DNA from: Bacteroidota bacterium
GTDB lineage: Bacteria; Bacteroidota; Ignavibacteria; Kapaibacteriales; UBA2268
Direction: 5' to 3'
Assembly: GCA_022707965.1 (NCBI GenBank)
Contig: JAKIZO010000013.1
Location: 270-51,496, forward strand
DNA: 51,227 nt
The stretch's first letter is position 1. Every line of letters starts with the position of its first letter. The notes under the pieces were generated by a model. It ran no database searches, was not told where the DNA came from, and saw only the letters and a list, made by a program, of their open reading frames with translations. A program made the position numbers and the translations under genes. This document shows, piece by piece, positions 12,299 through 30,371 of this stretch.

Positions 12299-12392
12299 GC
12301 ACAGACAGGAATATCTGTGCTACCTTTATAGAAAAAACCTTCCGAAGGTTCCAAACCTTCGGAAGGTTCTAAGCCTGGAAATATTGAGAAAA
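12299..12392. repeat. Dispersed palindromic intergenic repeat, copy A
   Basis: The element starts with a hairpin (CACAGACA, loop, TATCTGTG at 12300-12319, one mismatch) followed by GCTACCTTTATAG, then two 15-bp palindromes of the AACCTTC-N-GAAGGTT type at 12336-12350 and 12354-12368. The second is the reverse complement of the first, so the pair can also fold on each other. A tail (AAGCCTGG, then TGAGAAAA) is shared with copy E. It lies in a gap between two minus-strand genes. Confidence 0.85.
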
Positions 12393-12428
12393 TCTGTGAA
12401 AACACGTTTATTTCACGCTATGAACAAT

Positions 12429-12513
12429 CACAGACAGGAATGTCTGTGCTACCTTTATAGAAAAACCTTCGGAATTGAGGAAACCTTCGGAAGGTTCCAA
12501 ACCTTCGGAAGGT
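12429..12513. repeat. Dispersed palindromic intergenic repeat, copy B
   Basis: A perfect 8-bp stem hairpin CACAGACA-GGAA-TGTCTGTG lies at 12429-12448. It is followed by GCTACCTTTATAG, a half palindrome at 12464-12474 and two full AACCTTCGGAAGGTT palindromes at 12482-12496 and 12499-12513. It is in the same order and orientation as copy A, 129 bp after it, so A and B look like a direct duplication that has since diverged. Confidence 0.87.
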
Positions 12514-12556
12514 TCTAAGATCGGGAAATTATGTAACAATCTGAGAAGATTTAGAT

Positions 12557-13168
12557 TTAGTATTTCACCGAGCAACCGTAGGGTTGAGTTACTTTCGTCG
12601 AGACGGGCTTGCCCGCAAGCGCTTCACCGAGTGCTTTCGACACATAGTTTTCAGCTTTTTCGATGTCTGCTTTGTCGGTTGAGCGAATGCTATCGATTGC
12701 TCCTGCATAAATAAGCGTTCCTTGTGGGTCGATAATATACATATGAGGTGTCGTCTTTGCTGAATACAAACGCCCGACGTCTCCACTTTCGTCAATTAAA
12801 TATGCAGTGAATTTTGTTTTATAGTTTTCGGAGCGTTTCTTGATTTCATCTTTCGGAAGGTGCCCTTCTTTTCCGGGTGCCGACGAGCAAATAGCAAGCC
12901 AGATAACGCCCTGCTGTGTGTATTTATCCTGCAATTTTTGCATATTTTTGCTGTCGTAGTGCTTTTTCACAAATGGACAATTGAAATTAATCCATTCGAG
13001 CACAACATATTTTCCCCGAAAATCCGAAAGTTTGTGCTTTACGCCATTGACGTCGGTTAGTTCGAAATCGGGGGCAGGTTTGTCGATTTCAGCTTTGTTT
13101 TGAGCAAATACGTTTGTCAGTGCGAAGCTCAAAGCAATAAGAGCAAATACACCAAATAGCGAGTTCAT
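12557..13168 (-). CDS. Secreted peroxiredoxin/thioredoxin-like protein
   Basis: This 203-residue protein has an N-terminal signal peptide (hydrophobic FGVFALIALSFAL, cut near VFAQ) and an AhpC/TSA-type fold: PAPDFELTDVNG, YVVLEWINFNCPFVKKHY with a single Cys at the active-site turn, and TTPHMYIIDPQG. The C-terminal TQPYGCSVKY supplies a second Cys, as in PRX-like periplasmic proteins. It probably acts in thiol redox or peroxide handling outside the cytoplasm. It lies 14 bp downstream of a broken DsbD-N-like gene, and the two probably formed one redox unit. The substrate is unknown. Confidence 0.9.
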   Translation of the reverse strand: MNSLFGVFALIALSFALTNVFAQNKAEIDKPAPDFELTDVNGVKHKLSDFRGKYVVLEWINFNCPFVKKHYDSKNMQKLQDKYTQQGVIWLAICSSAPGKEGHLPKDEIKKRSENYKTKFTAYLIDESGDVGRLYSAKTTPHMYIIDPQGTLIYAGAIDSIRSTDKADIEKAENYVSKALGEALAGKPVSTKVTQPYGCSVKY

Positions 13169-13182
13169 AAATCCTCCTTTTA

Positions 13183-13997
13183 TTATAAAAATATTACAAC
13201 ATCGTAAGCTTTTTCGTTATCAACAATCAATGCTTTAAATTCTTTTGGTATTTCCACGTGGAAAGCATCGAGCCGAGCAACAAGCGAACTTCCCTGCATA
13301 GATTGAGCCGCTGAATTGTCAATTATCCCTTCCAGATACGGAATAATTCTTGCTTTTTCGGATAAATTAAGGCTTCCGCTGAGTTTCACTTCAAGCATAT
13401 TATCTTTGATTTCTCCACGCAAAGGATTGTCCAATCTGACAGGAATATTGCCAAAAATGTCAGAGAAACTTCTATTAATCTCGCTGCGATTGCTCGAAAT
13501 AAGTTGAATTTTGACTGTATCTTTGCCCGGCAAACACTTTTCCTTGCAAGCAAGCCACTTTACAACACCCGTAATTTCGAAAATTTGATTTTCTAAATTA
13601 TCAGGAACTGTAAATTTATAGAAAATATAGTGTTTGTGATGATAGCCGTAGGATATAATCTCGTCAGTTTGGATTATTTCGGGCACTTGCCAGACGGTAT
13701 CGACCAATGAGATACCTTTCGGCAAATTCCACTCAACGGTTGTAGCAAGCCCCGCATCACCGGGATTTGCCCAGTATGTGTGCCAGCCTGATTTACGGCA
13801 AAAGGGAGTTGTCTAAATAATGCACCGGGATTTGCCCAGTATGTGTGCCAGCCTTCCTTCGGTTCTATTTCGACAGCTATCCAGGTGCTTTCGCCTGCTG
13901 CAACCTTGTTGTGCAATGCAAGCAAAGAAACTCTGGCTGTTTCGTTACTTTCTGCCATAAATAATAGGGCGCTGAGCAAAATTGATAAATACATCAT
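13183..13997 (-). pseudogene. DsbD N-terminal-domain-like protein, disrupted by a 65-bp insertion
   Basis: Two reading frames together encode a secreted protein like the thiol-accepting alpha domain of DsbD. The 5' frame (from ATG 13997) has a signal peptide and EPKEGWHTYWANPG. The 3' frame resumes with DAGLATTVEWNLPKGISL and contains the Cys pair of WLACKEKCLPGKD. Between them a 32-bp segment is present twice (13758-13789 and 13823-13854) with a 33-bp spacer. Removing one copy plus the spacer (65 bp) restores an exact uninterrupted frame across the WANPGDAGL junction. The transmembrane and thioredoxin parts of a full DsbD are absent. As it stands the gene would make only a truncated product of about 107 residues. 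An assembly artefact cannot be excluded. Confidence 0.82.
13758..13854. repeat. 32-bp direct repeat flanking a 33-bp spacer inside the DsbD-N-like gene
   Basis: The two 32-bp copies (13758-13789, 13823-13854) are identical by eye and share the sense WHTYWANPG coding segment. The unit plus spacer is 65 bp, not a multiple of three, which explains the frameshift. The spacer matches nothing else recognised in the window. Confidence 0.9.
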
Positions 13998-14202
13998 AAC
14001 GAAAATTTTGAGAATATAAGTAATTGACGGAATTTAGTCGTCCTTATTTTATTTGTTTAGATTTGACTGAATCGCTTGTGATTAATAGTGTTTTAGAAAC
14101 TGATTGAACAATTTATTGAAAAATTAACAATAAAAATTCAGCTAAAAAGGTGTAAAAAAATAAATTCAAAAAAATAAAAAAATGTTAATTCGAAAAAAAA
14201 GT

Positions 14203-14233
14203 TTTGCAAATTAGAAAAATGTTTGTATTTTTG
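14203..14233 (+). promoter_or_regulatory. Bacteroidota-type promoter for the tRNA cluster
   Basis: TTTG at 14203-14206 and TATTTTTG at 14226-14233 are separated by 19 bases and match the -33/-7 consensus TTTG-N19-TAnnTTTG of Bacteroidota sigma factors. The first tRNA begins at 14250, so transcription would start a few bases before it. Transcription may continue into secE and the ribosomal genes. Confidence 0.75.
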
Positions 14234-14249
14234 TATTCCTAAATTGTTC

Positions 14250-14333
14250 GGGCAGGTACCGAAGTGGTCAACCGGGGCAGACTGTAAATCTGCTGGGCTC
14301 CGCCCTACGGAGGTTCGAATCCTTCCCTGCCCA
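14250..14333 (+). tRNA. tRNA-Tyr (anticodon GTA)
   Basis: An 84-base class II tRNA with acceptor pairs GGGCAGG/CCTGCCC, discriminator A, anticodon loop CTGTAAA (GTA) and a long variable arm (GGGCTCCGCCCTACGG region). The T-loop is TTCGAAT. The CCA end is not encoded. It is the first of five tRNA genes in the cluster. Confidence 0.97.
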
Positions 14334-14350
14334 CTATGAAAACAAATTAT

Positions 14351-14423
14351 GCGGGAGTAGCTCAGTTGGTAGAGCATCAGCCTTCCAAGCTGAGGGTCGC
14401 GGGTTCGAGTCTCGTCTCCCGCT
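14351..14423 (+). tRNA. tRNA-Gly (anticodon TCC)
   Basis: A 73-base tRNA with acceptor GCGGGAG/CTCCCGC, discriminator T, anticodon loop CTTCCAA (TCC) and T-loop TTCGAGT. It differs at only 8 of 73 positions from the next tRNA in the cluster. Confidence 0.97.
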
Positions 14424-14437
14424 CAGCTCGAAGAGAT

Positions 14438-14488
14438 AGCGGCATACAATTTAATAATTCTTGTGGAATTACAAAAGCCGCTTTTTTT
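14438..14488 (+). terminator. Possible intrinsic terminator between the two tRNA-Gly genes
   Basis: AGCGGC (14438-14443) pairs with GCCGCT (14477-14482), an inner AATTC/GAATT stem is possible, and the second arm runs straight into seven T (14482-14488). The loop is long, so it may be a weak terminator or an attenuator that separates the Tyr-Gly part from the later tRNA genes. Confidence 0.4.
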
Positions 14489-14497
14489 GTCGTAAAT

Positions 14498-14570
14498 GCG
14501 GGAATAGCTCAGCTGGTAGAGCATCAGCTTCCCAAGCTGAGGGCCGCGGGTTCGAATCCCGTTTCCCGCT
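14498..14570 (+). tRNA. tRNA-Gly (anticodon CCC)
   Basis: A 73-base tRNA with acceptor GCGGGAA/TTCCCGC, discriminator T and anticodon loop TTCCCAA (CCC). It is nearly identical to the TCC tRNA upstream, including a compensating change in the last acceptor pair (G-C to A-T). This points to tandem duplication followed by a wobble-base change. Confidence 0.97.
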
Positions 14571-14584
14571 CGGGCGAAGCAAAC

Positions 14585-14657
14585 GCTGATGTAGCTCAGT
14601 TGGTAGAGCACATCCTTGGTAAGGATGAGGTCACCGGTTCAATCCCGGTCATCAGCT
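14585..14657 (+). tRNA. tRNA-Thr (anticodon GGT)
   Basis: A 73-base tRNA with acceptor GCTGATG/CATCAGC, discriminator T, anticodon loop TTGGTAA (GGT) and T-loop TTCAATC. In many genomes tuf follows a tRNA-Thr at this place; here tRNA-Trp follows after 21 bases. Confidence 0.97.
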
Positions 14658-14678
14658 CTGCGGAAAAAATTTGCAATT

Positions 14679-14751
14679 ACGGGTGTAGCTCAATTGGTAG
14701 AGTAGCGGTCTCCAAAACCGTTGGCTGTGGGTTCGAGTCCTACCACCCGTG
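14679..14751 (+). tRNA. tRNA-Trp (anticodon CCA)
   Basis: A 73-base tRNA with acceptor ACGGGTG/CACCCGT, discriminator G (the usual Trp identity base) and anticodon loop CTCCAAA (CCA). It lies 64 bp before secE, the common arrangement, and is likely to be cotranscribed with it. Confidence 0.97.
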
Positions 14752-14815
14752 CAATCAATTTTAAGGCAAGCATCGCGTTTGCCGAGATTTTTTTATTTGT
14801 AAATGAGAATGTGTT

Positions 14816-14998
14816 ATGGTTGCTAAAATTAAAAAATTCGTTAATGAAGTTGTTGCCGAGATGAAAAAAGTCTCCTGGCCCACAAAAGAACAATTGAAGG
14901 AATCTACCAAAGTTGTTATCGGGGTTACTTTGGTTATCACACTTTTCATTTTGGTTGTCGACCAGGCTTTGACTGCAATTATGAAAGCTATTTTTTAA
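14816..14998 (+). CDS. secE: Preprotein translocase subunit SecE
   Basis: This 60-residue protein is the short, one-helix form of SecE, which clamps SecY in the translocon. The amphipathic KKVSWPTKEQLKEST segment and one transmembrane helix (VVIGVTLVITLFILVVDQA) are diagnostic. It lies between tRNA-Trp and nusG in the classic order. The ATG at 14816 gives a normal N-terminus. Confidence 0.96.
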   Translation: MVAKIKKFVNEVVAEMKKVSWPTKEQLKESTKVVIGVTLVITLFILVVDQALTAIMKAIF

Positions 14999-15023
14999 CT
15001 TAAAATTATAAAATCAGAGCGAT

Positions 15024-15713
15024 ATGAATTTCGACGATACATACGAAAATATTGAACAGCTTGGCGAAAGCTCTCAACCCGACAGCAACGACGACTTCGA
15101 TTTCTCCGCTTTGGAACGCAAAAAAGAAGAATTCGTCGAACCTCCCAAAAAATTGTCCGACGACGAACGTTCCACTACCGAAGCACGATGGTACGCCCTG
15201 CGCACCTTCACCGGACACGAACTCCGCGTTAAGCAAAACATCGAAGCCGAAGTAAAGCGACTGAACCTGAAAGATAAAATCTTAGAGGTTGTCATCCCCG
15301 AAGAAACTGTCTATGAAGTGCGTGGTGGCAAACGCCGCTCTCGTCGGAAGAATTTTTTGCCCGGCTACATCATTGTCAAAGCAATTTTAGATAAGAAAAC
15401 ACGCGAAATTATCCAATCATTGCCCTCTGTGGTTGCTTTTGTCGGGCGTAAAAACGAACCCCAGGCTTTGCAACCCGACGAAATCAAAAGAATCCTTGGG
15501 CGAGTGGAAGAAAGAAAAGATATCGAAACTGTGGTTACCCAATTCGAAATTGGTGACCCCGTACGAGTAATAGATGGACCATTCAACACATTCAGCGGGA
15601 CAATCAAAGAAATTAATTACGAAAAACAAAAGATGAAAGTTGAAGTGGGTATCCTTGGGCGTAAAACACCAGTGGAACTTGACTTCAGCCAAGTCGAAAT
15701 AGAGAATAAATAA
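15024..15713 (+). CDS. nusG: Transcription termination/antitermination factor NusG
   Basis: This 229-residue protein couples RNA polymerase to Rho or the ribosome. The NGN domain begins near residue 54 ([13 protein letters not shown]) and contains [11 protein letters not shown]. The KOW domain is [19 protein letters not shown] to the end. About 50 extra N-terminal residues are strongly acidic (DDTYENIEQ to PPKKLSDDE) and are absent in most NusG. It sits 25 bp after secE and 29 bp before rplK. Confidence 0.96.
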
Positions 15714-15742
15714 ACGTATTTTTCACATTCAGTAAAAGTAAA

Positions 15743-16168
15743 ATGGCTAAGAAAGTAGCAGGAACATTCAAACTCCAACTCAAAGCAGGCGAAGCAACTA
15801 TGGCTCCACCTGTTGGTCCGGCGTTTGGTCAGAGAGGCTTGGCAGGTATGGAATTTGTTAAGCAGTTCAATGCCAAAACCGCTAAACAGCAGGGAACAAT
15901 ATTGCCAGTGGTTGTTACTTACTATACTGATAAAAGCTTCACTTTTATCATTAAGTCGCCTCCGGCACCTGTTCTGCTTCTGAAAGCAGCAGGTTTGCAG
16001 AAAGGTTCAGCCGAGCCAAACAAAACAAAAGTCGGCAAAGTTACAGTCGCTCAATGCGAAGAAATTGCTAAAATTAAAATGGATGACCTCAATTGCACTT
16101 CCATCGAATCTGCTATGAGTATGATTAAGGGAACTGCAAGAAGTATGGGCATCAATGTTGTTGAATAA
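15743..16168 (+). CDS. rplK: 50S ribosomal protein L11
   Basis: This 141-residue protein is normal for L11, which forms the GTPase-associated centre with 23S rRNA. Recognisable parts are [19 protein letters not shown] at the N-terminus and [18 protein letters not shown] at the RNA-binding C-terminus. rplA follows after 17 bp. Confidence 0.98.
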
Positions 16169-16185
16169 TTAATTACGAGATTGAA

Positions 16186-16884
16186 ATGAGACAAAGAGGA
16201 AAAAGGTACAGGAAACTTGTCAGTAGCTTCGATAGAAACAAACTCTATAACGTAGGCGAAGCTATTGAAATCGTCAAAAAAAATGCCACCGCGAAGTTCG
16301 ACGAATCCTTTGAAATCTCTATGAGATTAGGCGTCGACCCACGTAAAGCTGACCAAATGGTTCGCGGGACTGTATCTCTTCCCCACGGCACTGGTAAAAC
16401 AGTTAAAGTACTTGTTCTCTGCAAGCCTCCAAAAGATAAAGAAGCTTTGGACGCAGGAGCAGACTACGCCGGATTGGAAGAATACATCGAAAAAATTAAA
16501 GGCGGTTGGGCTGATATTGACGTTGTTGTTGCTACTCCCGATGTTATGGGAGAAGTCGGTAAGCTTGGTCGTATTCTCGGTCCGCGTGGTTTGATGCCAA
16601 ACCCGAAAGTCGGCACAGTTACTTTTGATGTTGCTAGAACTGTTGCTGAACTTAAAGCCGGTAAAATCGAATTCCGTGTCGATAAAACCGGTAATATTCA
16701 CGCGGCTGTTGGCAAATGCTCCTTCCCACCTGAAAAACTTGCTGAAAACGTTAATGCTTTCTACCAGAGCATTATGCGTGCTAAACCTGCTACTGCTAAG
16801 GGTAAATACGTAAAAAGCGTTTATTTCAGCTCTACTATGGGACCGGGCGTTGCTGTAAGCGACCAATCATTTGATAAATTCTAA
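16186..16884 (+). CDS. rplA: 50S ribosomal protein L1
   Basis: This 232-residue L1 protein forms the L1 stalk and in many bacteria represses its own operon. Typical motifs are [21 protein letters not shown] (its start), [19 protein letters not shown] and [11 protein letters not shown]. Length is normal. It is followed by the rplJ leader. Confidence 0.98.
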
Positions 16885-16912
16885 ATTTTAAGTCTATTAC
16901 GCACTCGCTGCA

Positions 16913-16957
16913 TTCGGGATGCTTCTCCTTCGCCCCATAAAGGCGATTGTTCCCGAA
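16913..16957 (+). promoter_or_regulatory. Candidate ribosomal protein L10 leader RNA
   Basis: The rplA-rplJ gap folds into a nested stem: outer TTCGGGA/TCCCGAA (16913-16919 with 16951-16957) and inner TCGCC/GGCGA (16930-16934 with 16942-16946), separated by an asymmetric internal loop. Known L10 leaders at this position have a comparable interrupted stem that binds the L10(L12)4 complex and represses translation. Assignment is by position and shape, not by a covariance search. Confidence 0.5.
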
Positions 16958-16995
16958 AGCAACGTTAAAATAAATCAAAAAACGGACAGAGGTTT

Positions 16996-17523
16996 ATGAT
17001 TACTCGCGAAAAAAAACAAAGCATAGTTGAGAATTTAGTCGAGAAACTGCAGTCTGCAAAAGGGATTTATTTCGTAGATTTTACTAAAATCACTGTCGAA
17101 GAAATTAACAAAATTCGCCGTGAATTTAAATCGAAAAATTCTACCTTCAAAGTTGCAAAAAACACGCTAATTCTGCGTGCTCTTGCACAAGTTGGTGGAT
17201 ACGAGCTGCCCGAGCGTCGCCTTTTCGGTCAGACAGCTATGATTTTAGCTTACGACGATGCTGTCGCTCCGGCTAAAATTATCAAAGATTTCTACGAAAA
17301 AGAGCAAAAACTCGAACTCAAAGCCGCTTTCATCGAAGGTCAGTACTTCGACGGAAAGGATTTGAAAGTTATTGCTTCACTGCCATCCCGCGCAGACCTT
17401 GTTGCAGGTATTCTTGGCAGTCTCAACTCGCCGATTTCTGGCATTATCGGCTCTATCAACGCTGTTATGCGTGATGTGGCTTCGCTTATCGAAGAAGTCG
17501 CTAAAAAACAAAATGCCGCTTAA
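16996..17523 (+). CDS. rplJ: 50S ribosomal protein L10
   Basis: This 175-residue protein is the base of the L7/L12 stalk. It has the usual N-terminal RNA-binding part (VDFTKITVEEINKIRREF, KVAKNTLILRAL) and a C-terminal helix for L12 dimers. The ATG at 16996 follows an AGAGGT element, a clear ribosome-binding site. The 111-bp leader contains the structured element listed separately. Confidence 0.98.
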   Translation: MITREKKQSIVENLVEKLQSAKGIYFVDFTKITVEEINKIRREFKSKNSTFKVAKNTLILRALAQVGGYELPERRLFGQTAMILAYDDAVAPAKIIKDFYEKEQKLELKAAFIEGQYFDGKDLKVIASLPSRADLVAGILGSLNSPISGIIGSINAVMRDVASLIEEVAKKQNAA

Positions 17524-17555
17524 TTTTTTTTGAATAATTTTTGGAGTTTAATAAA

Positions 17556-17939
17556 ATGTCTGAAAAAGTTGAAAAATTAGTTGAAGAGATTTCCAATCTC
17601 ACATTAGTTGAAGCTGCTGAACTCAAAAAAGCTTTAGAAGAAAAATTCGGAGTTACCGCTGCCGCTCCTGTAATGATGGCTGGCGCTATGCCTGGCGCTC
17701 CTGCTGCTGAAGCCCCAGCTGAAGAAAAAACTGACTTCGATGTTGAACTTACAGAAGTTGGTGCTAACAAAATTAACGTTATCAAAGCTGTTCGCGAAAT
17801 CACTGGTCTTGGCTTGAAAGAAGCTAAAGACCTGGTCGAAGGCGCTCCTAAAATCGTTAAAGAAGGTTGCAACAAAGACGAAGCTAACGATATTAAGAAG
17901 AAACTCGAAGAAGCAGGCGCTAAAGTTACACTTAAGTAG
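17556..17939 (+). CDS. rplL: 50S ribosomal protein L7/L12
   Basis: This 127-residue stalk protein has an N-terminal dimer domain, an Ala/Pro-rich hinge (about residues 35-55, with [15 protein letters not shown]) and a C-terminal factor-binding domain with [20 protein letters not shown] and [12 protein letters not shown]. The ATG at 17556 was used; a TTG five codons earlier is in frame but lies on the GGAG ribosome-binding site. A strong hairpin follows the stop. Confidence 0.98.
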
Positions 17940-17949
17940 TTTTTTTAAG

Positions 17950-17985
17950 CAGGGGAGACCACTCCCCTGCAATTATTTTTTGCAA
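17950..17985 (+). terminator. Intrinsic terminator/attenuator after rplL
   Basis: GCAGGGGAG pairs with CTCCCCTGC around the loop ACCA, followed by AATTATTTTTT. The stem is perfect over nine pairs. In many bacteria a partial terminator here lowers rpoBC transcription relative to the ribosomal genes. Confidence 0.85.
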
Positions 17986-18149
17986 AGCTATGATGCAAAA
18001 TGTCTATAATATCTTTTGCAATAATAATCAGAAAAAGCTAATTGTTTTTTTGAAATAACTTGTGTGGGTTTGCTACACATATATTATTTATTAGTATAAA
18101 AAAGAATTGCATAATAAATATATAAAAATGAAAATATCAGTTGTTGGTA

Positions 18150-18210
18150 GGATTTTTTGATGTTCTTTTTATGCTCTTGCAATGAGGAACGTCAAAAAAT
18201 CCTATTTTTT
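18150..18210 (+). promoter_or_regulatory. Long hairpin before rpoB, possible leader attenuator
   Basis: A 16-base arm at 18150-18165 (GGATTTTTTGATGTTC) pairs with 18187-18202 (GAACGTCAAAAAATCC) with one G-U pair and a 21-base loop. It is followed at once by TATTTTTTAT. It lies about 40 bp before the rpoB start in a 300-bp gap after the rplL terminator. The shape is that of an intrinsic terminator or attenuator; its effector, if any, is unknown. Confidence 0.6.
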
Positions 18211-18241
18211 ATAATGAATTTAATTTCTGAGGAGGCTTACT

Positions 18242-21200
18242 GTGGAGAACAATGAATTTCAGGAAATAATCGGCGAAGGTTTCGAATCTGCTCTCCCGGT
18301 TAATTATAAAACAAGCGACACCAGCAATATCTTCCTGCTGGACACTTCGGAAGATATTGTGCGACTTCGGAAGCGAGTGAACTTCTCGCGTACGAAATGG
18401 GCGCCACTCTATCCTGATTTGCTCGGAGTGCAGCTCCAATCATACGAAGAATTCTTACAAGAAAACACGCCACCAAAAAAACGTAGAAATATTGGATTGC
18501 AGCAAGCTTTCAATAACAATTTCCCTATTGAAGATGCTTCCTCAATTTACCAACTCGAATTCCTTGAATACTCGATTGATAAACCTAAATACACCGAAGA
18601 AGAATGCCGCGAACGTGAACTCACTTACGCAAAACCTCTAAAAGCAAAACTTCGGCTATCGAGCAAAGCCGATAAAGATTCCGAAGATTATATCGAAGCT
18701 ATCGAGCAGGATGTTTATTTAGGCAATATTCCCGCTATGACAAGCCGCGGCACCTTTATCATCAATGGTGCCGAACGCGTTATCGTAAGCCAGATACACC
18801 GTTCGCCTGGCGTATTCTTCGACGATGCTATGCACCCAAATGGTGTGCGTATTTATTCCGCACGCGTTATTCCTTTCCGTGGCTCGTGGATTGAATTCAC
18901 TACCGATATCCACGAAGTTATGTATGCTTATATTGACCGCAAGAAGAAATTCCCTGTTACTACATTATTGCGTGCTTTGGGATTTTCCTCGGACAAGGAA
19001 ATTCTTGACCTGTTCGAACTTGTAGTTGATGTAAACCCCGAAGATTTAGATGAATCATACATTGGCAAAAGAATTGCCTCCGACGTAGTGGATTTGAACA
19101 CAGGCGAAATTATCGCAACCCGCGATATGATTCTGACAGAAGAACTTTTCGCTCAATTCAAAGCCACTACTATTACTCCTTTGAGATTCTTCTCATACAC
19201 AGACCCAATCGACGAACCTATCATCGCAAGAACAATAGCTAAGGATACTACCCGCAACCGCGAAGAAGCCCTCGAAGCAATCTACCGTCAGATGCGTTCG
19301 AGCGACCCACCAGACATTGAAACTGCTGCCGGACTGCTCGAAAAACTTTTCTTCAACTCCAAACGCTACGACCTTGGTGTTGTCGGTAGAGTTCGTATGA
19401 ACGAAAAAATTGGGCTTAATATTCCGACCGATGTTACCGTCCTTACAATAGAAGATATTGTTGCTATTATCAAGCACTTGATAAAACTCCACGAATCGAA
19501 ACACACTGGCGACGATATAGACCATCTGGGCAACCGCCGCGTTCGCTCTGTCGGCGAGCAACTTCAAGCACAATTCAACGTTGGGCTTGCTCGTATGGCT
19601 CGCACTATTCGCGAAAGATTAAGCATTCACGATGGCGAAAATCTCACCCCATCTGAACTTGTTAACGCACGAACAATTACTTCCGTCGTTAATCAGTTCT
19701 TCGGGACAAATCAGCTTTCTCAGTTTATGGACCAAACAAATCCACTCGCCGAACTTACTCACAAACGCAGAACTTCGGCACTCGGTCCCGGCGGTCTTAC
19801 TCGCGAACGTGCTGGCTTCGAAGTACGCGACGTTCACTACACACACTACGGAAGGCTTTGCCCAATCGAAACACCCGAAGGTCCGAACATTGGTCTTATC
19901 TCCTCGCTTGCTATACACGCAAAAATAAATGAACTTGGATTTATTATGACGCCTTACCGCAAGGTTGTCAATGGATACGTAACCAATCAAATCGAGTATC
20001 TAACAGCAGATAAAGAAGATGGCTTAATATTAGTTCCCGCATCAACAGCAGTTGACGAAAACGGACGCCTTGCAGGTGAGAAAATTCGTGCCCGCCGCAG
20101 CGGCGACTATGTCTTCGTTACTCCCGAACAAGTTGATTATATGGACGTTTCGACCGACCAGATTACTTCTCCTGCTACTTCGCTCATTCCATTCCTCGAA
20201 CACGACGACGCAAACCGTGCGCTTATGGGCTCGAATATGCAACGTCAGGCTGTGCCACTTCTTCGCACCGAAGCCCCGATTGTCGGTACAGGTATGGAAG
20301 CACGTATCGCAAAAGACTCGCGTACTCTGCTTTTAGCCGAAGGCAACGGTGTAGTAGAATACGTCTCCGCCGACAAAATTATTATCCGCTACGAAGACAC
20401 CCGCACCGAAGAAGAAAAACTTGTTAGCTTCGAAAATAAAGAACTTGTTGAATATAAACTGACTAAATTCTTCCGCACCAACCAGGATACTTGCGTCAAC
20501 CAGAAACCAATTGTAAAGAAAGGCGATAAGGTTGTGAAAGGTCAGCCAATTGCCGATGGTGCTTCGACCGACCGCGGCGAACTTGCACTTGGCAAAAACG
20601 TGCTTGTTGCGTTTATGCCCTGGCGTGGCTATAACTTTGAGGACGCTATTATCCTTTCGCAGAGAGTTGTTGCCGAAGATGTTTTCACCTCCGTTCATAT
20701 TGAAGAATTTACCCTTCAAGTGCGCGACACAAAACGCGGCGAAGAAGAATTTACTCGCGAAATTCCAAACGTTAGCGAAGAAGCAACCAAAGACCTCGAC
20801 GAAAACGGTATTATCCGCGTAGGTGCTAAAGTAACGGAAGGCGATATTCTAATCGGTAAAATTACTCCAAAAGGCGAAACCGACCCAACACCCGAAGAAA
20901 AACTGCTTCGCGCAATATTCGGCGACAAAGCCGGCGACGTCAAGGACGTTTCGCTCAAAGCAGGTCCCGGAATCAAAGGTGTTGTGATTAATACAAAACT
21001 TTTCACTCGCCGTATGCACACAGGCGACCGCGAAGCTCGTTCCGAAGAAAAGAAACGCGCCGAGCAACTTAACCGCCTCGAACGCGATGTGTTAAAGCGT
21101 CTTGATGACGAATGCGTAAAGCGCCTGGGTAAAATTCTTGACGGCGAAACTTCGCTTGGTATGAAATTGACTAATAATGTGTCTGTCTTCCGCTCCGGAG

Positions 21201-22141
21201 CAAAAATGACAGCCGCTAATATAAAAGAAAAATACAACGATGGCACTCTGAAACCTGAACTTTTGAGCGAAGACGATAATTTTGTTTCTGACGAAGCTAA
21301 AAACGAACTTGTTAAAAAATTGATTGCAAATTATAAGCAAAAACGCTCCGACGAGCAAGCTCGCTTCCGCTCAGAACGTAATAAATTGGCTGCGGGCGAC
21401 GAACTCCAACCTGGAATTTTGCAAATGGCAAAAGTATATATTGCTAAAAAGCGTAAAATTCAGGTCGGCGACAAAATGGCAGGTCGCCACGGTAATAAAG
21501 GTATCGTCTCCAAAGTTGTTCCTCCGGAAGATATGCCATTCTTGCCCGATGGAACTCCTGTCGATATAGTGCTGAACCCGCTCGGTGTGCCTTCTCGTAT
21601 GAACCTTGGTCAGCTCTACGAAACTGCACTTGGCTGGGCTGGTTCCAAACTGGGAATACATTTTGCAACTCCAATTTTCGATGGTGCAACCTGGGAGCAA
21701 GTGGGCGACTACTTAGAAAAAGCGGGATTGCCTCGCGACGGAAAATCGGTGCTTTACGATGGACGCAGCGGCGAACCATTCGAAGAGAAAGTTACCGTTG
21801 GCGTTATCTATATGCTCAAACTGTCGCACCTTGTCGAAGATAAGATGCACGCTCGTTCCATTGGTCCTTACTCGCTTATCACTAAACAGCCACTCGGCGG
21901 TAAAGCACAATTCGGTGGTCAGCGTCTTGGTGAAATGGAAGTTTGGGCTTTGGAAGCTTATGGCGCTTCGCACACACTGCAAGAAATGCTTACAGTCAAA
22001 AGCGATGACGTCCAGGGTCGCGCTAAACTATACGAAGCAATTGTCAAAGGCGACAATATGCCCGACCCGAACATCCCCGAATCATTTAACGTGCTTGTTC
22101 GTGAGTTGCAAGGCTTGTGTCTTGATTTGTATGTTGAATAA
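18242..22141 (+). CDS. rpoB: DNA-directed RNA polymerase subunit beta
   Basis: This 1299-residue subunit carries the usual rifampicin-region sequence ([25 protein letters not shown]), [19 protein letters not shown] (its parts), the [13 protein letters not shown] catalytic region and the C-terminal [18 protein letters not shown]. The start is the GTG at 18242, because AGGAGG stands six bases upstream and no better ATG exists. Many antisense reading frames inside it are shadows of its codon bias. rpoC follows after 45 bp. Confidence 0.99.
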
Positions 22142-22186
22142 TTATTAATAATGAAAATTAGAAATTAAATAAATGGAGTTTATCCA

Positions 22187-26542
<4,356 letters not shown>

Positions 26543-26569
26543 TATTAAAACAAATTATAAATATTTATA

Positions 26570-26743
26570 AACCTTCCGAAGGTTTCAAACCTTCGGAAGG
26601 TTCTAACGATTTAATGCTCTTTTTGCTCAAAGACAGGAATTTATTATAAATAAACCTTCGGAAGGTTAAAACGACTTATAACTCTTTGTCCACACAGACA
26701 AGAATGTCTGTGCTACTTTATTTGAAAACCCTCAGAAGGTTAA
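26570..26743. repeat. Dispersed palindromic intergenic repeats, copy C (rearranged)
   Basis: Two palindromes stand at 26570-26584 and 26588-26602 (AACCTTCCGAAGGTT then its reverse complement), one at 26653-26667, the hairpin CACAGACA-AGAA-TGTCTGTG at 26693-26712 and a degenerate palindrome at 26728-26741. The order of parts differs from copies A, B and E, so it looks like two incomplete elements side by side. It fills the gap between rpoC and a convergent lipoprotein gene and could serve both as terminator. Confidence 0.85.
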
Positions 26744-26775
26744 AAGAAAAGATTTATGAGACTGCCCAAAGTCGG

Positions 26776-27243
26776 TTAATTCGAATTCTGTATCTGAGGC
26801 AGTTCTCCGGGAGTGGATATATCGTCAGCAAACTTCATACTTTTGAGATTAGTAATTAAATAGTACGTTACACTTTTGTCGTCAGTTTGGATTTCTTTGC
26901 CGTCAACAATTTCTGCAACGTATGTTTCTCCATCGGTTAAATTACGAGGAATGATTTTCTCGGAAGACCATTTGAGAAAGTTATCGTTTGAAATCAAAAA
27001 TGCATAATTATCGTCGTCGGAATTAAGAGTGAAAATATGGTATTCTTTATTCGTTTTTTCACTGGATATTTCTCCATAATCGGTTATAGTGCCTGAATAA
27101 GTAAGGTAGAAAAAAGATTTGTAAATAGAAGTGTCGCCCGTTTGCTCAGCTTTTTCCGCAGTTTCTTCTGTTTTTTGGTTGCCGCAGCTAATAATCATTG
27201 CTGCTGCAACAAATGCAACAATAATGTTGAAGAACACTTTCAT
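26776..27243 (-). CDS. Hypothetical lipoprotein
   Basis: This 155-residue protein has a signal peptide ending in a lipobox-like MIISC with the Cys at residue 20, followed by an acidic, Glu/Thr-rich linker (KTEETAEKAEQTGD). The rest suggests a small beta-rich domain. No family is recognised. It faces rpoC tail to tail across the repeats. The membrane anchor is well supported; the role is unknown. Confidence 0.75.
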   Translation of the reverse strand: MKVFFNIIVAFVAAAMIISCGNQKTEETAEKAEQTGDTSIYKSFFYLTYSGTITDYGEISSEKTNKEYHIFTLNSDDDNYAFLISNDNFLKWSSEKIIPRNLTDGETYVAEIVDGKEIQTDDKSVTYYLITNLKSMKFADDISTPGELPQIQNSN

Positions 27244-27324
27244 TATTTTGCCTCTTGAAAAATTAGAGAAAGAATTATAGAGGAAATAATGAATTTCAAG
27301 TTGAAATGCAAGAAAAAATTATAC

Positions 27325-28221
27325 TCAATCTTTCGAAATGGATTTTTCCAATTTTAGCGAAATATAAAAGAAGACAGCTCCGGCAAGCACATCTATCACA
27401 TAGTGATAACGCAAATAAACTGTCGCCAAAATAAGTCCACAGCCAATTATTAGAAAAACAAATCGCAGCTTCGATTTAAATTTGAATGCCAGATAAATGT
27501 TAATCAGCGTCATCATAGTGTGTCCGCTGGGCATACAATCGCGATGCACCTGCACTTCTGGCGGAATTGCGGCACTGATTATCCCACCGCCGGTATTTAC
27601 AACAGAACGGAAAAATTCCGTCAGATACACGCCTGGCAGATCGCAAGAAAGCGTTGAAAAATCGTGCAAAGTAAAACGCGGTCCAATCGCCGGAAGGAAA
27701 AAATACAGCAGGTATGAAAAATAGAACCCGAAAAGAATATTCCGCAGTAGCTTGTCGAATTCTGCGTCTTTTTTGCGTATATGCAATTCAATTCCGTGAA
27801 TTATTGGCATAAAAAAGAAAGTCATATAGCAAAACTGCAAAAACTCTGTCAAGTATGGATTAGCAAATTTCATTGTAAAATGTGTGGGGTCTGTGCCGCA
27901 AATTGCACGGTCAATCTTAATAAAGAGTTCATCAAAAAGATTTGGGTTAATTATTGTGATGTATGTGTTTGTTTGATTATAGATGAAATAGACAAAAATC
28001 AAAAGATAAAACTTCCGAATAGCGATAGTATATTTATTTCTTTGCTGAATGCTTGATACTGCTAAAATTATAGCAAAGAAAAAAGCATTTTGAGCTATGT
28101 TTATCAGATAATCCGTTGAATTAAACAAAAACAATAGCGACAGTAGCGTGTAAAACAGTAATATGATTATTGTATATTTCTCTGCTAAACTGAATTTATC
28201 TGAAAGTTTTTTTATTATCAT
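27325..28221 (-). CDS. PAP2-superfamily membrane phosphatase (inositolphosphotransferase-like)
   Basis: This 298-residue integral membrane protein has several hydrophobic helices and the PAP2 signatures PSGHTMM and RYHYVIDVLAG, the form seen in PAP2_3 (Aur1/Ipt1-like) proteins. These remove or transfer lipid-linked phosphate groups at the membrane, perhaps in lipid or polyprenyl metabolism. The ATG at 28221 (MIIKKLSDKF) was chosen over an in-frame TTG at 28242. It starts just after the glycosyltransferase gene (18-bp gap), suggesting a shared envelope pathway. Confidence 0.87.
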   Translation of the reverse strand: MIIKKLSDKFSLAEKYTIIILLFYTLLSLLFLFNSTDYLINIAQNAFFFAIILAVSSIQQRNKYTIAIRKFYLLIFVYFIYNQTNTYITIINPNLFDELFIKIDRAICGTDPTHFTMKFANPYLTEFLQFCYMTFFFMPIIHGIELHIRKKDAEFDKLLRNILFGFYFSYLLYFFLPAIGPRFTLHDFSTLSCDLPGVYLTEFFRSVVNTGGGIISAAIPPEVQVHRDCMPSGHTMMTLINIYLAFKFKSKLRFVFLIIGCGLILATVYLRYHYVIDVLAGAVFFYISLKLEKSISKD

Positions 28222-28238
28222 CTGCAAATGCAATAATA

Positions 28239-29186
28239 TCAAACATTATTAATCAATTCGTAGTTTTTGAATGAGGAAATCTGTCGCCCACCTAAAAAGT
28301 TGTTTTCAATGAACGAAAGCAATCTATATTTTAAACGCTCGTGTTTGTGTGGCTCACGGTTTGGGTTTGGCTTGCCACTGTATTGCAATTTGTCCTGCCA
28401 GAACATTTCACAAATTCGTTTCTGCATCACCTGTGGGTGAGTTCCTTTGAATTGAGCAAGTCGATTAAGCGGACCATAGTCAAATTCAGCGGGTTTATTT
28501 CGGTAGATTTCTTCAACTTTTGCGGCACCTTTGTGGTTTGTGTCGATAGCTTTGCTTTTGCTTTGCATTAGGTGAGGCGGACGCACCCAACCGTAATGGT
28601 AGATATGGGCATTTATTTTTGCCACGCGAAGTTTGCGAGTGCCTTCGCGTTGGTGTGGGCGTTCGTAATAATCAAAATAGCGGAATGATTGAGCGCTCTG
28701 CCAGGAATGAATTTCAGGCAAATTCCGCACAATTCGGATTTCATTTTTATACCAGCCGTGCGAATTATGGTAGTGGAAATAATCGCCCCAGAAGTGATAA
28801 TAATCGAAAAGCATTCCCTCTATTTGCGGATTGTCGAGCAATTGCTCGCAACGGCGGCGAATTTCGGGCACATCTTTTTCGTGAATTAGCTCGTCGGCTT
28901 GCAGGTATAGCAACCAATCGCCCGAACAAGCCTTCATTGCAATATCAGTCTGTATTGCGTGGATTGCACCGCGCACCATATAGCGTTCGTCCCAGACTGT
29001 ATCTATTATGTGTATTTTGTCGCTTCCTATTGATGCAATATCCTCGCGAGATGTATCATCAGGGTCGCCTTTGCCAACTGCTACATATATCTCGTCGCAC
29101 AAAGGCAACATCGATTCAATTGATTCCCGCACGGGATAATACAACTTGCTTCCGTTGCGTACGAAAGAAAAACCACTAATTTTCAT
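28239..29186 (-). CDS. Family 2 glycosyltransferase
   Basis: The 315-residue protein has the GT-A start KISGFSFVRNGSKLYYPV, CDEIYVAVGKGDPDDTS and, at the usual metal-binding place, LLYLQADEL (QADE where DxD is common). It lacks transmembrane helices and is likely cytoplasmic, adding a sugar to an envelope glycan. Sugar and acceptor are unknown. It is followed by the PAP2 gene in the same direction. Confidence 0.87.
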   Translation of the reverse strand: MKISGFSFVRNGSKLYYPVRESIESMLPLCDEIYVAVGKGDPDDTSREDIASIGSDKIHIIDTVWDERYMVRGAIHAIQTDIAMKACSGDWLLYLQADELIHEKDVPEIRRRCEQLLDNPQIEGMLFDYYHFWGDYFHYHNSHGWYKNEIRIVRNLPEIHSWQSAQSFRYFDYYERPHQREGTRKLRVAKINAHIYHYGWVRPPHLMQSKSKAIDTNHKGAAKVEEIYRNKPAEFDYGPLNRLAQFKGTHPQVMQKRICEMFWQDKLQYSGKPNPNREPHKHERLKYRLLSFIENNFLGGRQISSFKNYELINNV

Positions 29187-29287
29187 AAAATTAACTAAAT
29201 GTTAAAATGCAAATTTACTTTATTTATGATTATTATTAAAGTAAAATAAAACAGTAATTGTGCGGTTTTCTAAAAAGTACCTTTTTG

Positions 29288-29302
29288 AACTTTCGGAAGG
29301 TT
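29288..29302. repeat. Single palindrome of the dispersed repeat family, copy D
   Basis: AACTTTCGGAAGGTT differs at one base from the palindrome of the other copies and stands alone without the CACAGACA hairpin. It lies next to an intrinsic terminator between the glycosyltransferase and a lipoprotein gene, and may be a decayed remnant. Confidence 0.65.
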
Positions 29303-29306
29303 CCCA

Positions 29307-29348
29307 CAAAAAAATTGCAGGGGTACCACTAAGGCGAACCCCTACAAT
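29307..29348 (-). terminator. Intrinsic terminator of the downstream lipoprotein gene
   Basis: On the minus strand ATTGTAGGGGT pairs with ACCCCTGCAAT (one G-U) around a 13-base loop and runs into seven T. It is 42 bp beyond the stop of the lipoprotein gene at 29391, in the correct orientation. Confidence 0.85.
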
Positions 29349-29390
29349 AAGTTGAAATGACCTGAAATTATTTAATAAATTCTTATATCC

Positions 29391-30128
29391 CTAATTCAAA
29401 TTTGACGGGAAAATTGTTAGTTTTAATTTTCTGCTTTTATCAGGGCTTTCCCATTCAACACCGACAAGCCCAAATTGGTGATTTGTGTAGTAGATGACTT
29501 TGCCGAACAAATCTTTTAGCGGACCATCGGATACTGTTTCTTCCACTTTAATAACTTTGATTAGCCAGAAGGCAATTTCGAAATCATCTGTTTTAGAGCG
29601 ATAGGTAACTTCGCGTACAAATTTATTGCCGTCTTTGTCCTTAAAAGTATATTTATCGCCTACTTTTGCATTGTATTTGACCAGCAAAAATGGTTTGCTT
29701 TCGTCGCCTTCGCTGTGTATGTAATCTTGCATACCTTCTGATGTTACTTTTGCTTTGATTTTGTAGTCGATTTTGATGTTGTTCAGGTCTGAACTATCAA
29801 TTTTAGCGGCGAAATGCCGTATTGCTTTTTCGCGCAGAGCATCTTTCAGGGGTTTCGGTAGTTGTGCAGTGCCAAACAAAGAATCAAGTTTGCGTATAAA
29901 GTCAATGCTGGTGGTGATACGCCCTTCCACCACGACATTTCCTTTGCGATTTTCGGTTACAACGGGTTCTGAACTTATATCACCCATTCCTGGAATTGTT
30001 GTATAAACGTATGTTTTGGAACCAACATCTGTAAATTCAACATTCGTGCTTCCACCAAGAGTGGTGTCGTCCTCTGAACAAGCTGAAATAATCAGAGGAA
30101 TTACAATAAGCAAAATAAATTTTTTCAT
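29391..30128 (-). CDS. Hypothetical lipoprotein
   Basis: This 245-residue protein has a signal peptide MKKFILLIVIPLIISAC with a lipobox Cys at residue 17 and a Ser/Asp-rich start (SEDDTTLGG). The mature part is mostly beta-type with many charged residues; no family is recognised. The ATG at 30128 was selected since CGGGGAG lies 7 bases before it; an in-frame upstream start at 30185 would spoil the signal peptide. An intrinsic terminator follows it. Confidence 0.8.
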   Translation of the reverse strand: MKKFILLIVIPLIISACSEDDTTLGGSTNVEFTDVGSKTYVYTTIPGMGDISSEPVVTENRKGNVVVEGRITTSIDFIRKLDSLFGTAQLPKPLKDALREKAIRHFAAKIDSSDLNNIKIDYKIKAKVTSEGMQDYIHSEGDESKPFLLVKYNAKVGDKYTFKDKDGNKFVREVTYRSKTDDFEIAFWLIKVIKVEETVSDGPLKDLFGKVIYYTNHQFGLVGVEWESPDKSRKLKLTIFPSNLN

Positions 30129-30274
30129 TTGGCACTCCCCGAAAGTAAAGGAAACTAAATTCAAATTAAATAAATAAATTAACAAATCAAAATTATTGTT
30201 TTGAAGTAAATATTGTTAGATAGAAGAATATGCATTAAAGATAATTTAAAATATGTTTTTCTTGCGTGGTGTCG

Positions 30275-30366
30275 GCACAGACAGGAATGTCTGTGCTACT
30301 ACATTAAAAAACCTTCGGAAGGTTCCCGCCCTTCCGAAGGTTCCAAGCCTGGTAATAATGAGAAAA
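30275..30366. repeat. Dispersed palindromic intergenic repeat, copy E
   Basis: The copy has the hairpin CACAGACA-GGAA-TGTCTGTG at 30276-30295 and palindromes at 30310-30324 and 30328-30342. The tail AAGCCTGG and TGAGAAAA matches copy A. Total length is about 92 bp, so A and E define the complete element. It sits just beyond the stop of a minus-strand kinase gene. Confidence 0.87.
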
Positions 30367-30371
30367 GCAAA

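Follow-up and report, generated by a model that had tools for sequence, protein, structure and literature searches.

Repetitive extragenic palindromic (REP) sequences are common, and the mode of their spread is poorly understood. GTAG-type REPs and the REPtrons of the REP-associated tyrosine transposase (RAYT, or TnpA_REP) are characterized, in the accessible parts of the accounts (PMC2817692, PMC3733652), by a perfect 8-bp stem with GTAG or GTGG directly at its foot, stem mutations that compensate each other, placement between genes and inverted copies around the RAYT gene. Subclass 2.6 of TnpA_Y1, mostly from Bacteroidetes, carries a YIH[QN]NP motif and is flanked by 'atypical' GTAG-less structures with copies elsewhere in the genome, according to the text, without the structure table, of Quentin 2018 (PMC6006769). 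Bacterial interspersed mosaic elements (BIMEs) are clustered mosaics of REPs and other short motifs. Here we analyzed intergenic repeats in a 51,227-nt stretch of a Bacteroidota bacterium of the order Kapaibacteriales (assembly GCA_022707965.1, contig JAKIZO010000013.1, positions 270 to 51,496 of the forward strand; hereafter the window). We conclude, with a rough probability of 0.72, that they are compound REPs, composed of a GTAG-type hairpin and a 33-bp double palindrome and likely spread by two Y1 (HUH) transposases whose genes are bracketed by the respective parts in relatives. It was observed directly that they are numerous and mainly intergenic, that their stems are paired and their two parts fused, that genus mates lack them, and that in relatives the parts bracket the two transposase genes.

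The hairpin part is, by its sequence, a GTAG-type REP. On one strand, CACAGACA-NNNN-TGTCTGTG-CTAC occurs four times in the window, at 12300, 12429, 26693 and 30276, a count reached by none of 100 shuffles; on the other strand the hairpin reads GTAG followed by CACAGACA-TTCC-TGTCTGTG, with an 8-bp stem. The draft assembly (2.10 Mb, 128 contigs, 92.4% complete) contains 93 places with at most three mismatches, 29 of them exact, and none for the reversed motif used as control. For finer analysis we used a 428,878-bp sample of the same genome, picked for holding copies (the window, contigs C40, C51, C128, C32 and C56, and part of C49), in which open reading frames (ORFs) of at least 100 aa cover 87% of the sequence. 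There, 80 of 83 hairpin matches lie outside such ORFs and the remaining 3 inside, CTAC (GTAG on the opposite strand) directly follows 46 of 49 hairpin cores, and the outer stem bases are paired in 44 of 46 hairpins (CA/TG 38, TT/AA 5, AA/TT 1; 2 unpaired). Across all 33 distinct hairpins that carry a GT(A/G)G tag and have free outer bases, taken by script from the fetched loci, the outermost stem pair matches in 32 cases against a shuffled mean of 12.9 and the second pair in 31 against 14.8, values reached by 0/1000 shuffles in either case. For the 11 distinct hairpins of the genome itself, the outermost pair is also significant. The tag at the stem foot, the compensatory stem changes and the high, mainly intergenic copy number thus agree with those of described GTAG-type REPs, as do the inverted copies around RAYT genes, here found in relatives (loci L110, L111, L117, L157 and L160).

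Among 100 genomes, including this one and three genus mates, the hairpin (at most three mismatches) occurs in 17 and in none of the genus mates, and genus g33, from another family of the same order, has up to 346+382 matches (G059). Forty Y1_Tnp loci were fetched from relatives as two sets of 20. The first 20 loci, mostly the strongest Y1_Tnp matches and initially considered to hold the cognate enzymes, almost all had no hairpin (L072 was the exception, with a hairpin about 0.8 kb away, and L070 had palindromes); the REP-flanked genes were found in the second 20. In total, the hairpin or a close variant stands beside the Y1_Tnp gene at 7 of the 40 loci (L072, L104, L109, L110, L111, L115 and L117). 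An additional scan of named genomes with one hairpin-flanked RAYT gave 16 loci, and at 8 of them a GTAG hairpin of the window kind lies within 400 bp of the RAYT. The exact window hairpin flanks a stand-alone RAYT of 150-160 aa on both sides in Ignavibacteria bacterium BIN7 (L157) and Chlorobi bacterium OLB5 (L160), and also a RAYT inside recG in G067 (L117), while hairpins with a GTGG tag bracket the RAYT inside recG in G085 (L110) and G090 (L111). The hairpin-flanked RAYT proteins from the named-genome scan scored 69-79 bits against NCBIfam NF047646 (REP-associated tyrosine transposase), just under the cut-off of 80, and a PDB sequence search with the L157 RAYT returned no match.

The second part, the palindrome AACCTTC-N-GAAGGTT, occurs at 11 sites in the window (up to two mismatches; count reached by 0/100 shuffles) and at 294 places genome-wide (at most one mismatch; control 2), and 152 of its 159 matches in the sample lie outside ORFs of at least 100 aa. 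The genome-wide count, proposed as a check by an earlier sequence-only reading of the window, bears out its suggestion of a non-autonomous, REP- or BIME-like element spread through the genome: copies are not few, and they are not as frequent in coding as in non-coding sequence, because 80/83 hairpin and 152/159 palindrome matches are intergenic though ORFs cover 87% of the sample. Its treatment of the repeats as one palindromic family does not hold, as two unrelated families are found apart in other genomes: G034 has 107 palindromes and no hairpins, and G059, rich in hairpins, has no palindrome. Neighbouring palindromes are 18-20 bp apart and have complementary centres in 53 of 56 pairs (G then C 33, C then G 20); therefore a pair can form a 15-bp stem with a 3-nt loop, that is, a 33-bp hairpin. 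The pairs in the window have folding energies of -18.6 to -22.9 kcal/mol (z -4.5 to -7.1). Comparison of palindrome flanks between genera revealed nothing shared, and so no longer element was found there.

The palindrome is likely a second, GTAG-less REP system with its own Y1 transposase lineage resembling subclass 2.6. In G013 (L214), a 193-aa Y1 gene has a palindrome pair 32 bp before its start, an in-frame copy inside and another copy 4 bp past the stop; in G016 a palindrome stands just outside the homologous Y1 gene on one side, and in G006 one palindrome is 220 bp off. This GTAG-less flanking of a subclass-2.6-like gene comes mainly from one genome. Proteins L214 and L106 contain YIHQNP, as in subclass 2.6, whereas their HUH motif is THFH rather than the NH[LIV]H given in the text of PMC6006769; second-type Y1 proteins match NF047646 with 52.9 and 53.5 bits, under the 80-bit cut-off. 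Compared with the structures described in that text, the ones here have a defined design of two 15-bp palindromes with complementary centres and a 3-nt spacer. A stem of at least 13 bp with a palindromic arm was present within 350 bp at 9 of 21 homologue loci versus 1 of 200 control window pairs, mostly with different sequences (e.g. AACTTTCCGAAAGTT in G010 and AAGTCATCCGATGACT in G018), and a close homologue (E<1e-30) was encoded in 5 of 12 genomes with at least 20 palindromes versus 6 of 88 others (Fisher p 0.0033). Alternatively, only the hairpin might be the REP of a RAYT, with the palindrome carried along as its flank without a transposase of its own and the position in G013 an ordinary landing. 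Exact palindromes flank a gene on both sides in that genome only, a close second transposase gene is missing from 7 of the 12 genomes rich in palindromes, among them this one, and REPs are reported to enter tnpA genes in the available text of PMC6006769. Against it stand the 107 palindromes of the hairpin-free G034, the homologues bearing other sequences of the same design, and the association of gene presence with palindrome number, and we regard this alternative as quite improbable.

In this genome the two parts are fused. A palindrome lies within 60 bp downstream or 130 bp upstream of 70 of 71 non-redundant hairpins, and within 60 bp downstream of 53 of the 71 versus 1.8% of random positions; 19 of 100 palindrome units have no hairpin within 250 bp. 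An iterated profile gave a 131-bp unit of hairpin, spacer, double palindrome and A/T-rich tail, with variable ends and 174 matches in the sample (strand duplicates of the palindromic parts included). For two of the window copies, A at 12299 and E at 30275, the sequence-only reading had proposed a common tail and an element of 92-95 bp; the tail was recovered, and the length gave way to 131 bp. Tandem units with a spacing of 126-134 bp are common, and neighbouring hairpins less than 300 bp apart are on the same strand in 22 cases versus opposite strands in 11, so that the alternating orientation of BIMEs was not found. The clustering of REPs with other short motifs is shared with BIMEs; REP orientation of one family alternates in BIMEs, whereas here two REP systems of different transposases would be joined. 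Hairpin loci in G013 (L128, L129) and G019 (L130) have no palindrome beside the hairpin. Relative to GTAG-type REPs as described in the accessible literature, the differences are that no RAYT was found in this host, that head-to-tail tandems prevail and that an unrelated palindrome is joined to the hairpin.

Comparison with the genus mates indicates recent arrival. As they contain no hairpin anywhere, it is local structure that is informative, and at all eight comparable loci (both flanks aligned in the fetched genus-mate stretches) the unit is missing. At one comparable site G003 has a palindrome pair of its own, and near 14019-14128 of G003:C11, the site of window copies A and B, two copies of another GTAG hairpin (GTAGAGCCGCAATG..) are present. 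Downstream of rpoC, two genus mates have a plain hairpin with a T-run terminator and this genome has palindromes. The one clean insertion, C51:53513, is a 213-bp insert relative to all three genus mates at an A-run. Being short, non-coding, repeated and recently inserted, the ~131-bp unit could be taken for a miniature inverted-repeat transposable element (MITE) of an insertion sequence with a DDE transposase, an option that the sequence-only reading had left open. Yet no target duplication beyond the A-run was seen by eye at C51:53513, the unit model has variable ends and no terminal inverted repeats, and in other genomes the parts are found apart, bracketing Y1 rather than DDE genes, which makes a MITE very improbable. 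A further option is that contigs of a repeat-rich organism were mixed into the genome during binning; the assembly is a draft of 128 contigs in which copies cluster on some. However, rpoC on the window contig shares 97-98% identity with its counterparts in the three genus mates, which keep gene order, and the repeat-bearing contigs C33, C40, C51 and C56 align in order with the genus mates; a binning artefact is scarcely credible. As a separate observation, gene order relative to G003 is broken at two repeat clusters of C51 (~46.6-47.1 kb and 58.6-59.0 kb), as if by repeat-mediated rearrangement.

The position of the repeats at gene ends raises another explanation, namely that they belong to the host, which keeps them to terminate transcription or protect mRNA ends, and were made alike by recombination copying rather than transposition. 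An element is present in 24 of 54 convergent gaps, compared with 15 of 208 unidirectional and 11 of 54 divergent ones (Fisher p 1.6e-8; p 4.6e-6 for gaps of at least 50 bp), 14 of the 15 in unidirectional gaps are nearer the upstream 3' end, the 33-mers fold strongly with the energies given above, and palindromes replace the plain terminator of two genus mates after rpoC. On the other hand, a run of at least five T on one side accompanies only 29 of 56 paired units, neither T-run orientation relative to transcription (10:5, p 0.30) nor hairpin orientation (6:7) is significant, and the element stands next to a retained terminator at C51:53513 and C51:92473. Moreover, a need for terminators leaves the conservation of the GTAG tag, the tail and the bracketing of Y1 genes in relatives unexplained. 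We therefore consider an origin as host terminators unlikely. Copies may be reused as terminators, as raised by the sequence-only reading: the placement fits, but the T-run and hairpin orientations are not significant.

The presence of only one genome with a gene flanked on both sides and of 7 palindrome-rich genomes lacking the gene also weighs against compound REPs spread by two transposases, together with the following points. By the criterion used, 12 of the 21 homologue loci have no double-palindrome design. In this genome alone the second stem pair of the hairpin is not significant (111/1000 shuffles), and only 8 of the 56 sample clusters were comparable with the genus mates. The prevalence of same-strand tandems is unlike most REP families, as far as the accessible part of PMC3733652 describes them. 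No movement was observed. Searches of the assembly gave no match for PF01797, none in the RAYT part at E<=1 for the RecG-RAYT query, none at 1e-10 for the L157 RAYT and none at 1e-3 for the L214 protein, and G059, despite its 346+382 hairpin matches, likewise had no match to the L157 RAYT at 1e-10. The absence of a RAYT from the window, as first noticed, thus extends to the whole assembly by these queries, and the usual GTAG-REP trait of a cognate RAYT in the same genome was not found in an assembly that is 92.4% complete. The copies are either orphans, or the transposase genes lie within the unassembled 8%; absence is unproven because a REP-bracketed gene of 500 bp could drop out of a draft assembly. 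Loss of REPtrons with retention of REPs is reported, and a RAYT in the same genome is not described as obligatory, in the accessible text of PMC3733652.

Compound REPs could have arisen as follows. The RAYT would nick at the GTAG hairpin, and the second transposase at the double palindrome, both acting on folded single-stranded DNA and so spreading copies. Joint action of the two enzymes, together with tandem duplication, may have produced the ~131-bp unit after the split from the genus mates, and both transposase genes would later have been lost, or were not assembled. Gene ends would be tolerated sites, and some copies may have taken over transcript-end roles.

All copies in the window are intergenic, in agreement with the sequence-only reading, and their layout varies. 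The repetition at the five loci named there is not due to chance, and the claim that all five share both motifs applies to some of them. At copy A, the GTAG-type hairpin (12300..12323, GTAG end and REP strand on the minus strand; the plus strand reads CACAGACAGGAATATCTGTGCTAC, with one stem change) is followed by the 33-bp double palindrome (12336..12368), whose two 15-bp palindromes have complementary centres and form a 15-bp stem with a 3-nt loop (-22.9 kcal/mol, z -6.3), and by the plus-strand unit tail (CTAAGCCTGGAAATATTGAG..., 12369..12428), which reaches the next hairpin; the unit model matches 12300-12420. Copy B is in head-to-tail tandem with A at a spacing of 129 bp, with its hairpin at 12429..12452 (minus strand) and a 33-bp double palindrome at 12482..12514, in which both centres are G, giving one mismatch in the long stem (-18.6 kcal/mol, z -4.5). 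Copy C at 26570 is a palindrome pair rather than a hairpin, a 33-bp double palindrome (26570..26602) 28 bp past the rpoC stop; motif matches place a single palindrome AACCTTCGGAAGGTT at 26653..26667, the hairpin of the cluster at 26693..26716 on the minus strand, and a degenerate palindrome with one mismatch at 26727..26741. Copy D, said to contain the hairpin, has only one degenerate palindrome by motif match (AACTTTCGGAAGGTT, 29288..29302), followed at 29318..29346 by what sequence comparison identifies as a degenerate third repeat of the GTAGGGGC..GCCCCTAC type. Copy E comprises a hairpin found by motif match (30276..30299, minus strand), a double palindrome with a degenerate second half (30310..30342; -20.7 kcal/mol, z -5.0) and, by the unit model, a partial plus-strand tail in common with A (30343..30369). 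An Rfam scan of the window detected tRNAs only.

Two further features were noted around copies D and E. The third repeat has a variable inner stem and 7 intact copies in the sample, and resembles the 'double foot' REPs presented in the accessible text of PMC6006769. The segment 29252-30371, containing copy D, a 264-aa ORF (29391-30185) and copy E, is missing from genus mates G001 and G002, which have ~140-147 bp instead; the ORF is a repeat-bracketed gene that was gained in this genome or lost in those two.

Beyond the window, RAYTs were found inside other genes of relatives. In G085 (L110), G090 (L111) and G067 (L117; gene split across two contigs), a RAYT and its REPs lie in frame within recG, between the DEQH and ATPIPRT motifs, and the REPs inside these genes are translated as linkers, e.g. 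VAQTFLSV. In-frame REP insertions, often in DNA repair genes, are known from the accessible text of Di Nocera 2013 (PMC3733652) and Quentin 2018 (PMC6006769); the difference here is that recG and other genes contain the whole RAYT gene with its REPs. Full-text literature searches (figures and most supplements not covered) yielded no description of such recG insertions and no match to the exact repeat sequences. The RecG of G080, which has no insert, is 95-97% identical to that of G090; P0003 and G090 have RecGs 97-99% identical outside the insert with RAYTs only 49% identical, and P0002 and P0004 have 98% identical RecGs with 51% identical embedded RAYTs. Different RAYTs in the same loop of near-identical RecGs suggest that REPtrons move, though gene conversion limited to the insert could be another cause of the contrast in identity.

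When proteins of 539-1715 aa were searched for an embedded RAYT of this kind, 40 were found (P0001-P0040). By Pfam domain content, we take these to be 5 RecG, 4 aminoacyl-tRNA synthetases, 3 ThiE-like, 1 PriA, 1 SNF2-like, 1 Y1 only and 25 methylase/restriction-type proteins. An AlphaFold model of RecG-RAYT (11 sequences) gave a pLDDT (predicted local distance difference test score) mostly of 75-91 for the RAYT part and a mean of 45 for the RecG part, too low to judge; Foldseek with this model placed RecG 1gm5 at rank 1 and E. coli RAYT 4er8 at rank 7. Separately, recG of G059 (L138) has another in-frame insert (..PSPSGRGLGEG..) without a hairpin in the loop that holds the RAYT elsewhere, and Y1 domains occur in frame, with repeated peptide linkers, within large DNA-methylase/restriction proteins of several relatives (L121-L127).

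The accessible parts of PMC8266576 and PMC6006769 report no evidence of tnpA_REP mobility, with REPtrons apparently not moving as units. The recG and other in-gene loci argue for such mobility without demonstrating movement. Tentatively, and at slightly less than even odds, we propose that whole REPtrons jump into housekeeping genes (recG, aminoacyl-tRNA synthetases, thiE, priA and restriction-methylases), in frame and at loops that tolerate insertion, where the REPs become peptide linkers and from which they scatter; in this species two such systems, differing in transposase and in the build of their REPs, would have met, fused, filled gene ends after the species split and lost both drivers. 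The genome thus offers a recent REP burst with genus mates as empty-site controls, a defined GTAG-less REP design that likely has a transposase lineage of its own, and two systems fused together, and the near-identical RecGs (97-99%) carrying 49-51% identical RAYTs in one loop make the question of REPtron movement directly testable.

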